DNA from: Sedimenticola hydrogenitrophicus
GTDB lineage: Bacteria > Pseudomonadota > Gammaproteobacteria > Chromatiales > Chromatiaceae
Assembly (NCBI RefSeq): GCF_029017505.1
Contig: NZ_JAQGEI010000004.1
Location: 62,001-126,000 of the forward strand
Length of the DNA: 64,000 bases
Direction of reading: 5' to 3'
The translations under genes were made by a program, and so were the position numbers. Position 1 is the first letter of the stretch; every line of letters starts with the position of its first letter. The notes beneath the pieces were generated by a model. That model ran no database searches and was not told the origin of the DNA. It saw only the letters and a list, made by a program, of their open reading frames with translations. This document shows positions 58,190 through 63,520 of this stretch, piece by piece.

Positions 58190-58351
58190 GGTTGAGAGCG
58201 AGAGCGGGTAGGAGCGCCTCTGGCGCGAAGCTTTTCGCGGCGGAGCCACTCCTACAACAGGGTAACCGGCGCCCATGATGCGCCCCATATAAATCAGGTA
58301 TATAGCGGGCCGTGCCCGCCGACTATCCGAGCAGAGACACAGGAGAAGACA

Positions 58352-58423
58352 ATGGATCGCATGGTATTTGTTGCGATGAGTGGAGCCAAGGAGACCCTGC
58401 TGGCCCAGGCCACCGAGCATTAA
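58352..58423 (+). pseudogene. duplicated and truncated flgF 5' end
   Basis: A 23-codon frame starting MDRMVFVAMSGAKETLLAQA, identical in protein to the true flgF start 185 bases downstream and with the same ribosome site (AGGAGAAGACA). It leaves flgF after the Thr of QAT and stops in the element (GAG CAT TAA). If translated, ribosomes would start here and terminate at 58423, in a different place from flgF. Confidence 0.85.
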
Positions 58424-58512
58424 GGGGTCAGAGCCCTTTTAGCGCACGATACAAGGCATTCCCATGCATTAAAAACAAAAAGGGCTCTGACCCCTAAATG
58501 ACCCTTAATGCA
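58415..58512. mobile_element. short palindromic element between flgF start copies
   Basis: 98 bases with inverted arms GGGGTCAGAGCCCTTTT (58424-58440) and AAAAGGGCTCTGACCCC (near 58478-58495), and outer GCATTAAGGG / CCCTTAATGC. It is too small to code for a transposase. The arms look like REP sequences mobilised by Y1 (RAYT) transposases, by appearance only. Confidence 0.75.
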
Positions 58513-58536
58513 CGAGCAGAGATACAGGAGAAGACA

Positions 58537-59277
58537 ATGGATCGCATGGTATTTGTTGCGATGAGTGGCGCCAAGGAGACCCTGCTGGCCCAGGCCACCA
58601 ACAGTAACAACCTGGCCAACGCCAGCACACCGGGTTTTCTGGCCGATCTGCAACAGTTCCGCAGCATGCCTGTGTTCGGTGACGGCTATCCCACCCGGGT
58701 CTACGGCATGAGCGAAAGCCCCGGCGTGGATTTCAAGCACGGCGCCATCGTGCATACCGGCCGGGATCTCGATGTGGCCATCAACGGCGACGGCTGGTTC
58801 GCGGTGCAGGCGCGCGACGGCAGCGAGGCGTACACCCGTCGCGGTGATCTGAAGGTGGATGCCAACGGCCTGTTGAGCACCGGCAACGGTTTGCCGGTGC
58901 TCGGCAATGGCGGGCCGATTGCCATACCGCCGGCGGAGAAGATCGAGATCGCCGCGGACGGCACCATCTCCATTCGCCCGCTGGGCCAGGGGGCCGGTGA
59001 GCTGGCGGAGATCGACCGGATCAAGATGGTGGCGCCGTCACTGGAGGGCATGCGCAAGGGGCAGGATGGCCTGCTGCGCCAGCAGGATGGCCAGCCGCTG
59101 GAGGCCGATGCCGAGGTGCAGCTGGCGACCGGCGCACTGGAGAGCAGCAACGTCAACATCGTCGACTCCATGGTGGACATGATCGATTTCTCGCGCCGCT
59201 TCGAGATGCAGGTGAAGATGATGAAGACCGCGGAGCAGACAGATGAGTCATCCGCCAGCATCATGCGCATGGGCTGA
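58537..59277 (+). CDS. flgF: flagellar proximal rod protein FlgF
   Basis: Rod subunit, 246 residues: MVFVAMSGAKETLLAQATN, then NNLANASTPGFLADLQQFR and the C-terminal GALESSNVNIVDSMVDMIDFSRRFEMQVKMMK. The start at 58537 is the second copy of the duplicated 87-base segment and leads into the intact gene. An in-frame ATG at 58498 lies in the element and is unlikely. Confidence 0.95.
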   Translation: MDRMVFVAMSGAKETLLAQATNSNNLANASTPGFLADLQQFRSMPVFGDGYPTRVYGMSESPGVDFKHGAIVHTGRDLDVAINGDGWFAVQARDGSEAYTRRGDLKVDANGLLSTGNGLPVLGNGGPIAIPPAEKIEIAADGTISIRPLGQGAGELAEIDRIKMVAPSLEGMRKGQDGLLRQQDGQPLEADAEVQLATGALESSNVNIVDSMVDMIDFSRRFEMQVKMMKTAEQTDESSASIMRMG

Positions 59278-60860: not shown

Positions 60861-60869
60861 GTGAATTGT

Positions 60870-62027
60870 ATGAATCAGTCTTTTGAGATCGGGTCCTTGA
60901 AGTTCGCCACGGTTGGCCGGTCCCTGTTTGCGGCCGCTATCGGCCTGCTGGCGCTGATGCTCGTGTTTTCCGGCGCGGTCCAGGCCGAGCGCATCAAGGA
61001 TCTCGCCGCCATCGCCGGGGTGCGCACCAACCAGCTGCTCGGTTATGGCCTGGTGGTGGGCCTGAACGGAACCGGAGACAAGAGCAGCTCCTCGCCGTTC
61101 ACCGAACAGAGCCTGAAGAGCATGCTGAACCAGCTCGGTATCGTGGTGCCCCCCGGTACCCGGATCAACCCGAAAAATGTGGCGGCGGTATCGATCAATG
61201 CCGATCTGCCCGCGTTCGCCAAGCCGGGGCAGAAGATCGACATCACCGTCTCTTCCATCGGCGATGCCAAGAGTCTGCGTGGCGGCACCCTGCTGATGTC
61301 TCCCCTGAAGGGCGCCGATGGCCGGGTCTATGCCATTGCCCAGGGCAATCTGGTGGTGGGTGGCCTGAGCGCATCGGGTGCCGACGGCTCCAGTATCACC
61401 ATCAATATCCCCAGCGTCGGGCGGATTCCCAACGGGGCCACGGTGGAGCGCACCGTCACCTCGGGTTTCAATCAGGGGACCTTCCTCACCCTCAATCTGC
61501 ATGAGGGGGACTTTACCACCGCCAACCGGGTGGTCGAATCGATCAACCAGGCGATAGGTCCTGGCGCCGCACGGGCGCTGGATTCGACGTCCGTCCGTGT
61601 CAACACCCCCATCGACCCCAACCAACGGGTCAGTTTTGTCTCGCTGATCGAAAATCTGCCGGTGGAACCCGGCGAGGTGGCGGCGCGGGTGATTGTCAAC
61701 TCCCGCACCGGTACGGTGGTGATCAGTAACCAGGTTCAGGTCTCGCCCGCCGCCGTCTCCCACGGCAGCCTGACGGTGACCATCAGCGAGAGCAATGAAG
61801 TCTCCCAGCCGGAAGCGCTCTCCGGCGGGACCACCACGGTGGTGCCGCGCTCGGACGTGAGCGTGGCGGAAGGCGGCAGCCGGATGTTCCTGTTCAACCC
61901 CGGCGTCACCCTCAACGAGGTGGTCCGGGCGGTGAATCAGGTAGGGGCGGCACCTTCCGATCTGGTGGCCATCTTGGAAGCGCTGAAACAGGCCGGCGCC
62001 CTCAAGGCCGAACTGGTGATCATCTGA
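60870..62027 (+). CDS. flgI: flagellar P-ring protein FlgI
   Basis: Periplasmic ring protein, 385 residues, with a signal peptide ending FSGAVQA and the highly conserved [34 protein letters not shown] 60870 has AGGTGA 5 bases upstream. The stop is part of TGATG at 62025-62029, whose ATG appears to be the former flgJ start. Confidence 0.96.
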
Positions 62028-62221
62028 TGGATCTGGCTAGCCCGGATTTCTCACCACCGTGCGTCGCGAGGGCGTCGAGGCGCCGTTGTGACGGGGTGCA
62101 CGGACCGGAGGGCGGCGGCCGGCGTAGCCAACACTACGTCAAGCCGGCTGGAGGGAGTACACCCCGTCATAACGAGCGAATCGGCGTCCGCAGTAGCAGG
62201 GTGGTGAGAAATGCGGGCTGA
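62027..62221 (+). pseudogene. former flgJ start, now a 64-codon frame through the element
   Basis: ATG 62027 overlaps the flgI stop (TGATG). It reads MDLA and then the whole inverted-repeat element in a frame that stays open to TGA 62219-62221, eight bases past the present flgJ ATG. Joined to GATGCCTCG without the element it would encode MDLADASIYTSMEG, matching the present FlgJ from its third residue. Confidence 0.7.
62039..62219. mobile_element. inverted-repeat element between flgI and flgJ
   Basis: 181 bases with 20-base terminal repeats, 19 of 20 matching: AGCCCGGATTTCTCACCACC (62039-62058) and GGTGGTGAGAAATGCGGGCT (62200-62219), plus inner arms around GACGGGGTGCAC / GTACACCCCGTC. Taking it out joins ATGGATCTGGCT to GATGCCTCG, restoring an in-frame flgJ start. 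Confidence 0.85.
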
Positions 62222-63275
62222 TGCCTCGATCTACACCAGCATGGAGGGCCTGACGGCACTCAAGGCCCGGGCATCCGGGGATGCCAAGGGCTCGCTGGAT
62301 GAGGTGGCGCGCCAGTTCGAATCGCTGTTTGTGCAGCAGATGCTCAAGAGCATGCGCCAGGCCGGCCTGGGTGAAGGGCTGATGGACAGTGATCAGAGCC
62401 TGTTCTACCGCGACATGTATGATCAGCAACTCTCCGTCCATCTCGCCGAGAGTGGCGGCATGGGACTGGCCGAGGTGATCAAGCGGCAACTGGGCGGTAC
62501 TGCCGGGGCGGGCGGGGACGAGGGCTCCGGCAGCGACACTGATAGCGATATCGGCCTGCCGGTCAAGTCGATCGAGGATTATCGGCGCCTGGCGATGGCG
62601 GTGAAGCTGTATAGCGCCATGGAAGCGGGCAGCGGTGCAGCGGATAGGGCGGGCCTCGCCCGCCTCGACGGCATCGACCTGGCCGGTGGCGCCGACGGAA
62701 CACCCCGTACCGATGCAGGGGATAGGGCAGGCCGTGCCCGCCTTGACACCACGAAACAACCCGATCCGCGCCACTGGAGTCCCGAAGAGTTCGTCGAAAA
62801 CCTCTGGCCTTGGGCCAGCGAGGCGGCGGGGCTGATTGGGCTCAAGCCCCAGGCACTGCTGGCCCAGGCCGCTCTGGAAACCGGTTGGGGGAAAAAACTG
62901 ATCCGCACCGCGGACGGGGCGCCGGCCAACAATCTGTTCGGCATCAAGGCGGACCGGGGCTGGGACGGCGACCGGGTAAGTGTCGGTAGCCTGGAGTATG
63001 AGCAGGGCACGGCGGTGAAACGGCGGGCCTATTTTCGTGCCTACGAGTCGTTGCGGGACAGCTTCCATGACTATGTGGATTTCCTGCAATCGAACCCGCG
63101 CTATAGCGACGCGCTGGGCGCCACTGAAGACAGTGCGACCTATTTCACGGAATTGCAGCGGGCCGGTTATGCGACCGACCCTGAATATGCGAATAAAATC
63201 AACGCGGTACTGAATGGGTCGGAAATGACCCGGGCGCTGGAAAGGCTCAAGCCAGAGGCATCACGGCCGCTATGA
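62211..63275 (+). CDS. flgJ: flagellar rod-cap/peptidoglycan hydrolase FlgJ
   Basis: Rod-assembly protein of 354 residues with an N-terminal rod-binding domain (VARQFESLFVQQMLKSMRQAGLGEG) and a C-terminal glucosaminidase-type hydrolase (LLAQAALETGWGKKLI with the catalytic Glu; FGIKADRGWDGDRV). The present start codon ATG 62211 and its ribosome site (AGGGTGG) lie inside the right end of the element 62039-62219. The linker (about residues 145-185) contains two in-frame copies of the GATAGGGCRGGCC palindrome (62643-62669, 62721-62746) otherwise found between genes, read as DRAGLARLDG and DRAGRARLDT. Confidence 0.93.
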   Translation: MRADASIYTSMEGLTALKARASGDAKGSLDEVARQFESLFVQQMLKSMRQAGLGEGLMDSDQSLFYRDMYDQQLSVHLAESGGMGLAEVIKRQLGGTAGAGGDEGSGSDTDSDIGLPVKSIEDYRRLAMAVKLYSAMEAGSGAADRAGLARLDGIDLAGGADGTPRTDAGDRAGRARLDTTKQPDPRHWSPEEFVENLWPWASEAAGLIGLKPQALLAQAALETGWGKKLIRTADGAPANNLFGIKADRGWDGDRVSVGSLEYEQGTAVKRRAYFRAYESLRDSFHDYVDFLQSNPRYSDALGATEDSATYFTELQRAGYATDPEYANKINAVLNGSEMTRALERLKPEASRPL

Positions 63276-63520
63276 ACGTAGGAGCGGCGTCAACTCGTAG
63301 GTTGGGGTGAGCCTGCGAACCCCAACGGTGTTGCAGGGGTGTGCGCCATGATGTTGGGGTTCGTACCTCACCCCAACCTACCGCTGGCACGAAGGTTTTC
63401 GCGGCAAAGCCGCTCCTACACAAGTGGTTGTTTGCCACGCGGATGTGGATATGTAGGAGCGGCTCCGCCGCGAAGGGCACGAATCATAAAAGCGGCGTCA
63501 GCCGCAACCAGGACAGACAG
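63276..63520. repeat. flgJ-flgK gap made of repeats
   Basis: 63297-63311 and 63367-63381 are perfect 15-base arms GTAGGTTGGGGTGAG. Three GTAGGAGCGGC-type half repeats lie at about 63279, 63408-63420 and 63452-63475. I see no flagellar promoter here, so flgK may be read from flgG or from a site I cannot recognise. Confidence 0.75.

Follow-up and report, generated by a model that had tools for sequence, protein, structure and literature searches.

An IS1380-type MITE at the flgI-flgJ junction of Sedimenticola hydrogenitrophicus as a probable case of start codon donation

ERIC, YPAL/RU-2, the 107-bp form of Correia/NEMIS and RPE are small, palindromic, non-autonomous elements which form stable RNA stems, lie in genes and are read in frame; in the portions of PMC2229807 and PMC10969869 available to us they are described as fusions. 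The element reported here shares this general build, and those copies of its family that are passed through as 60 codons (L007, L182, L020) resemble the MITE fusions of these accounts. At flgJ, by contrast, the old frame comes to a stop through the element, which brings a new start in the frame of the gene. The nearest described system is MITEAba12 of Acinetobacter, for which start codons at the element ends were noted as allowing fusion to neighboring genes (PMC6382973); it has other ends and a length of 113 bp, and the available part of that source gives such fusion as a possibility and shows no dependent gene. Coupled overlapping genes and starts hidden in hairpins likewise place a stop and a start within about 10 nt of each other, with the upstream ribosome opening the hairpin (PMC10666635; PMC12548453, both in the portions available). 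The flgJ locus would differ from these known coupled pairs in that its pair was made by transposition splitting one gene. In the literature we searched, which takes in only a minority of subscription papers, we found no MITE described as restoring a split gene through a stop and a restart, and none of four 15-letter end sequences of the family.

The flgI-flgJ junction and its empty site in relatives

We analyzed a window of 64,000 nucleotides of S. hydrogenitrophicus DNA, the whole stretch to which the coordinates below refer. A previous sequence-only reading had proposed that a mobile element provided flgJ with a new start codon. The features at the junction are as follows.

60861-62027, + strand, flgI, flagellar P-ring protein (Pfam FlgI, E 4.4e-144), stop TGA at 62025-62027, start taken from the ORF listing
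62027-62029, + strand, old flgJ start ATG, in a TGATG overlap with flgI; the overlap is shared by 8/8 same-genus relatives, and the ATG now opens a 64-codon frame through the element
62027-62221, + strand, upstream frame (uORF) of 64 codons, comprising the old start, the whole element and the stop TGA 62219-62221
62037-62040, no strand, left target-site copy CTAG, from flank comparison
62039-62062, no strand, left terminal inverted repeat as given by the repeat tool, taking in 2 bases of the target copy
62041-62217, no strand, 177-bp core of the IS1380-type MITE, a near-complete palindrome with a long predicted RNA hairpin
62196-62219, no strand, right terminal inverted repeat, also taking in 2 bases of the target copy
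62200-62205, + strand, probable ribosome site GGTGGT within the right terminal repeat, read from the sequence
62205-62207, + strand, TGA at position -6 of the new ATG and in frame with it, which bars any FlgJ-frame start upstream
62211-62213, + strand, putative new flgJ start ATG, from the right terminal repeat
62211-63275, + strand, flgJ as now read, 354 codons, MRADASIYTSMEGL..., from the ORF listing and Pfam
62218-62221, no strand, right target-site copy, CTGA in place of CTAG, from flank comparison

The overlap of the flgI stop with an ATG, noticed in the sequence-only reading, is present as TGA 62025-62027 and ATG 62027-62029. The 181 bases which that reading took as the length of the element proved to be the net insertion, made up of the 177-bp core and a 4-bp target repeat that is imperfect (CTAG and CTGA), and the inverted ends (62039-62062 and 62196-62219) span 24 nt at 92% complementarity rather than 20 bases. 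The element sits in codons 4-5 of flgJ. As had been stated, the old start is out of the FlgJ frame: the frame from 62027 stays open for 64 codons and ends at TGA 62219-62221, 8 nt past the first base of ATG 62211, where the FlgJ frame opens. The identity of the downstream frame also held, with Rod-binding and Glucosaminidase domains found by Pfam in its 354 codons and one FlgJ match in the window's genome. The uORF had no match in the Pfam scan; it overlaps flgJ by 11 nt, where 4 or 1 nt is common, and this larger overlap is counted against our best explanation. In the right target copy TGA replaces TAG, preserving the stop of the uORF frame, and the same change creates a TGATG at 62218-62223 whose ATG is out of frame with flgJ. 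In 176-bp copies of the element the old frame stops at the TGA corresponding to 62205-62207.

The right repeat supplies ATG 62211 and a probable ribosome site, as had been proposed, although the latter is better read as GGTGGT (62200-62205) than as AGGGTGG (62198-62204). It lies 5 nt ahead of the ATG and matches at 5/6 letters GGAGGT, the reference ribosome-site motif (the complement of the anti-SD). The FlgJ frame is interrupted by a stop at 62205, so the first possible starts (ATG, GTG or TTG) beyond it are ATG 62211 and then ATG 62241. We infer that 62211 is used. A start at 62241, the next in-frame ATG, is very unlikely: the protein would be ten residues shorter and would lose the block (A)SIYT that genus relatives retain, and inspection of the sequence reveals no ribosome site ahead of this codon.

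FlgJ was placed against FlgI in 30 genomes, the window's own included. The site is empty in all eight same-genus relatives, where the flgJ ATG overlaps the flgI stop (TGATG; TAATG in G005), as the sequence-only reading had anticipated; the two genes overlap in 16 of the 29 other genomes read. FlgJ N-termini in the relatives are MDLASASIYT, MELASAAIYT, MDMANASIYT and similar. The start at 62027 is thus the ancestral one for the genus, and of the genomes seen only the window's carries the insertion. The target before insertion was probably GGCTAGC, judging from the flanks, one change from the GGCCAGC of G001 and G003. Residue 5 of FlgJ is D in the window's genome and S or N in the relatives. Measured against G003, flgJ has a dN of 0.140 in the window's genome and 0.137 in G001; given this similarity flgJ is without sign of decay, although the insertion may be too young for decay to show.

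The RNA hairpin and access to the new start

The 181 bases are predicted to fold as RNA at -124.2 kcal/mol on the transcribed strand (z -11.3, with 0 of 200 shuffles as good) and at -102.1 kcal/mol on the other strand (z -7.3). Opening the region from -18 to +12 around ATG 62211 would cost 42.9 kcal/mol, or 17.1-17.5 kcal/mol with the upstream arm omitted. The corresponding cost is 7.2-28.8 kcal/mol at five other flagellar ORF starts in the window (starts as listed) and 43.0 kcal/mol at the new anmK start of the sister species G001, described below. Since the predicted whole-element hairpin buries both the ribosome site and the ATG, independent initiation at 62211 is unlikely and this start would be served mainly by translational coupling; the folding model thus favors coupled restart from the 64-codon frame as the likely route to flgJ. 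In the available portions of the sources, coupling needs short stop-start distances and is almost abolished at about 20 nt (PMC10666635), and it can work by hairpin unfolding, for which an unfolding model is given (PMC12548453).

In the mechanism that we propose, an IS1380-type MITE transposed into a CTAG at codons 4-5 of flgJ, and the gene would now start at ATG 62211. Ribosomes finishing flgI would restart at 62027, translate 64 codons through the hairpin and thereby open it, and stop at 62219-62221. They would then restart at 62211, 8 nt back, or a fresh 30S would enter there, with GGTGGT assisting. We consider it probable that the locus reflects a MITE insertion after which flgJ starts at 62211 mainly by coupling, and that it is one case of a recurrent donation of start codons.

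Long perfect stems are substrates of RNase III, and ATG 62211 might be used with the hairpin freed by RNase III cutting rather than by the passage of ribosomes; without the upstream arm the start would cost 17 kcal/mol to open, like neighboring starts. We regard this as quite unlikely, as the empty-site flgJ is arranged for coupling to flgI and the uORF preserves that arrangement. Correia/NEMIS MITEs are bound by RNase III and are cut or protected, according to the available portions of PMC2649163 and PMC2229807. There is only a very slight chance that the main role of the element at flgJ is that of a transcription terminator or promoter: the hairpin is strong, but consensus scans of 61900-62400 gave no terminator-like and no sigma-70-type promoter-like site.

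The element family

A copy 97% identical to the element is present in G001 at another place, and weaker relatives occur in G047, G012 and G042, giving 5 of 55 genomes with the window's own included. In the window's genome a single full copy is accompanied by a short derivative on contig C27 (L002, 1461-1534), of about 74 bp, which has kept both ends and lost most of its interior. A search of 96 genomes of the bacterial family, with one mismatch allowed, found the element ends in 10; across the class they occur in 22 of 369 genomes, where a reversed-pattern control gave 0. They also occur in named metagenome-derived genomes of several phyla (at least 119 stretches, some of which may be mis-binned). 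About 100 end sequences are carried by each of G368 (106) and G304 (99) in the class search and G071 (96) in the bacterial-family search, where the window's genome has a single full copy.

Identical 4-bp flanks, mostly CTAG, stand on both sides of 53 of 93 paired elements, and 3 of the 4 bases agree in 32 more. Among 74 elements of 165-190 bp the core is exactly 176 bp in 59 and 177 bp in 9. Two longer pairs of ends correspond to full-length IS1380 insertion sequences: L170 (1744 bp between matching ends) encloses a PF13701 transposase (E 1.5e-156), and L191 (1716 bp) encloses a transposase-like frame of 476 residues similar to that of L170. The 177-bp flgJ element shares their ends of 15-18 bp and their CTAG-like flanks but is without a transposase gene. 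Neither the long pair L216 nor L177 contains a transposase-like gene. PF13701 matched once in the window's genome, on contig C38, where none of 39 end-like sites lies; no element combining these ends with a transposase was found in this genome, and hence no resident helper.

On these sequence features, namely its short length, terminal inverted repeats, lack of a transposase gene, ends shared with a transposase-encoding element, target duplication, empty sites and dispersed copies, the element is assigned to the IS1380-derived MITEs. Two known classes were considered and set aside. The Rickettsia palindromic element (RPE) is set apart by layout, in that the net insertion in flgJ is 181 bp, the old frame stops and there is no in-frame pass-through. 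Assignment to Correia/NEMIS fails on the ends, CCCGGATTTCTCACC, and on the CTAG target, against the Correia ends and the TA target that define that class. The Correia/NEMIS features were drawn in part from the available portion of PMC2229807. Rfam returned 0 matches at the gathering score in the whole window, and a plasmid search for relatives of the element returned 7 records with weak matches over 15-20% of the query and no family member.

Start donation at other genes and family-wide frame tests

In G001 the copy that is 97% identical to the flgJ element lies three codons past the start of anmK, where it provides a putative new start MRARQPPVSADLYIGL; the next in-frame start falls inside the domain. 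The old anmK ATG runs for 58 codons and stops at a TGA 6 nt ahead of the new ATG. Six other genomes of the genus (the window's own, G002, G004, G006, G007 and G008) have anmK without the element at this place, beginning MP... with a start ATG that overlaps the end of the preceding gene; G003 has the gene with a start that the motif did not pick, and G005 gave no match. The anmK case is independent of flgJ and, together with the hairpin, is the strongest addition to the sequence-only reading, whose interpretation of the flgJ locus is supported by the comparisons above. That reading had missed the long hairpin hiding the new start, the place of the element as a 177-bp copy in a family of mostly 176-bp IS1380-type MITEs, and the recurrence of start donation.

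Two further genes, in other genomes, look like cases of the same kind when compared with relatives. The dctQ gene of G450 (L273) reads MRASSKIKGLYLGIDQFSEL, where two of the three genus relatives with a match read MSSSPSTVRRLYLGIDQFSEL and MSSSDSIIKRLYLAIDQFSEF; the starts in G466 and G355 are of the MSSS...LYLGIDQFSEL type, that in G243 is longer, and G467, a fourth genus relative, gave no match. The old dctQ ATG lies 16 nt left of the element and is no longer in a frame ending beside the new ATG. A DUF58 gene of G231 begins MRARTHIRQWLTRRQ..., compared with MGSYSNLIQHTESKLQCWLTRRQ... in G438 of the same family, and was also compared with G343.

An insertion that is recent and damaging, leaving flgJ poorly or not translated and motility impaired, with the in-frame ATG a matter of luck, might be suspected from the 43 kcal/mol hairpin over the start and from the representation of the species by one genome. 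This is unlikely, since anmK in the sister species, dctQ and DUF58 show the same result, the flgJ frame is intact and the gene changes no faster than in G001.

Sixteen places, hand-picked from the candidates, were examined for the start-proximal layout, with the left end within reach in 11. In eight start-proximal cases, flgJ and anmK included, a frame ending at -6 or +8 of the new ATG begins at a start codon 8-27 nt to the left of the element. Four candidates beyond flgJ, anmK, dctQ and DUF58 share the layout. Places without compared relatives, and one with its left end not found, are listed here.

L164, MoeA, candidate without compared relatives
L149, aminotransferase class IV, candidate without compared relatives, old TTG behind AGGAGA
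L155, exported protein with no Pfam match, candidate without compared relatives, old GTG
L176, DctQ, candidate without compared relatives
L092, CHASE/PAS protein, candidate without compared relatives, old GTG
L212, isocitrate/isopropylmalate dehydrogenase (Iso_dh), looks dependent, left end not found

Among the 16 places, L314 has no upstream frame ending by the new ATG and at L130 a nuclease gene is split internally. The relative of a PAP2 gene in G019 starts at a different place, and a dnaE-like frame at L320 has only about 47 codons open to its left. An in-frame ATG, GTG or TTG within nine codons is not rare by chance.

In general terms, an insertion of this family in phase nCT/AGn just past a start codon would have the element end return an in-frame ATG, reading MRA(S/R)..., and the severed first codons would become a short upstream frame ending at -6 or +8 of that ATG. 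The element end GGTGGTGAGAAATGCGGGCTAG would thus work like a portable module of stop, ribosome site and start. If this is true, transposon ends may act as portable translation start modules, such that insertion by a start codon gives a coupled pair and does not destroy the gene. It would also offer a route to separated overlapping genes, new short upstream frames and changed N-termini, and a warning that annotated MRA(S/R) starts may derive from an element. The pair of flgJ and anmK in two sister species makes start donation directly testable.

Across the family, 491 of 508 distinct ends were retained (site at most 2 mismatches from CTAG), and frames of at least 100 codons were counted. These numbered 44, 53 and 2 in frames 0, 1 and 2 for ATG ends, and 21, 25 and 3 for other ends. 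By this simple count of long frames, ATG ends do not favor the ATG frame (44 against 53); many long frames in frame 1 look antisense by codon-position G+C and were separated only by Pfam. In a Pfam scan of frames 0 and 1 (E 1e-5), support was found for 27 of 44 ATG-end frames in the ATG frame and 8 of 53 in the other open frame, compared with 6 of 21 and 6 of 25 for non-ATG ends. The ATG-end bias of 27:8 has p 0.0019 against 1:1, or p 0.0046 without flgJ and anmK (25:8); a direct comparison of ATG with non-ATG ends was not significant (Fisher p 0.14). One of the 27 supported frames (L348) falls below Pfam's own cut-off, and in most of the 27 a codon further downstream could itself serve as the start; this figure therefore does not count element-dependent genes. 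CTAG occurs within these genes nine times in phase CTA/G and twice in phase nCT/AGn (4 and 0 in the window genes), so codon use does not explain the frame excess. We consider the family-wide bias suggestive, and the general claim of start donation well illustrated but not statistically settled.

Some copies in phase CTA/G are passed through in frame, adding 60 codons, in genes for a molybdopterin oxidoreductase (L007), an M90 peptidase (L182) and a histidine phosphatase (L020). A broader reading, which we hold only tentatively and think doubtful, makes the 176-bp MITE an ORF-sparing transposon, with ends and a length that would allow a gene to survive its insertion in each CTAG reading phase. 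In phase nCT/AGn the end would give TGA-GAA-ATG, where reading stops and restarts without a change of frame (176 + 4 = 60 codons); in phase CTA/G the element would be readable as a 60-residue insert, as in the three genes above; and in phase nnC/TAG the duplicated CTAG would preserve the stop of a preceding gene, such as that before anmK in G001.

Two general forms of selection were tried and rejected. Lengths divisible by three occur in 73 of 142 elements, but in 16 of 85 without the 176-bp class. Openness of the element appeared high before correction (88 and 73 of 148 strands, compared with 51 and 47 in shuffles) and was not above shuffles after clustering at 80%, with 15 of 36 strands open in either phase and 30 and 55 of 300 shuffles as good.

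In L020, L210 and L150 the gene start lies left of the element and the frame runs through it into the gene, which would extend the N-terminus or leader by 60, 79 or 92 codons; L210 resembles a prepilin by eye.

Other small elements lie near flgJ in the window. An 87-nt stretch including the flgF start (GGAG...ATGGATCGCATGG) is present twice with 98% identity, at 58328-58414 and 58513-58599. Between the copies, at 58418-58500, is a short element with 23-nt inverted ends of the GGGGTCAGAGCCC type; the operon of flgJ thus has two small mobile elements that lie at the start of a flagellar gene. Between flgJ and the next flagellar gene, an inverted repeat at 63398-63474 (23 nt, 91% complementary, TTCGCGGCAAAGCCGCTCCTACA) is presumably a REP-type element.
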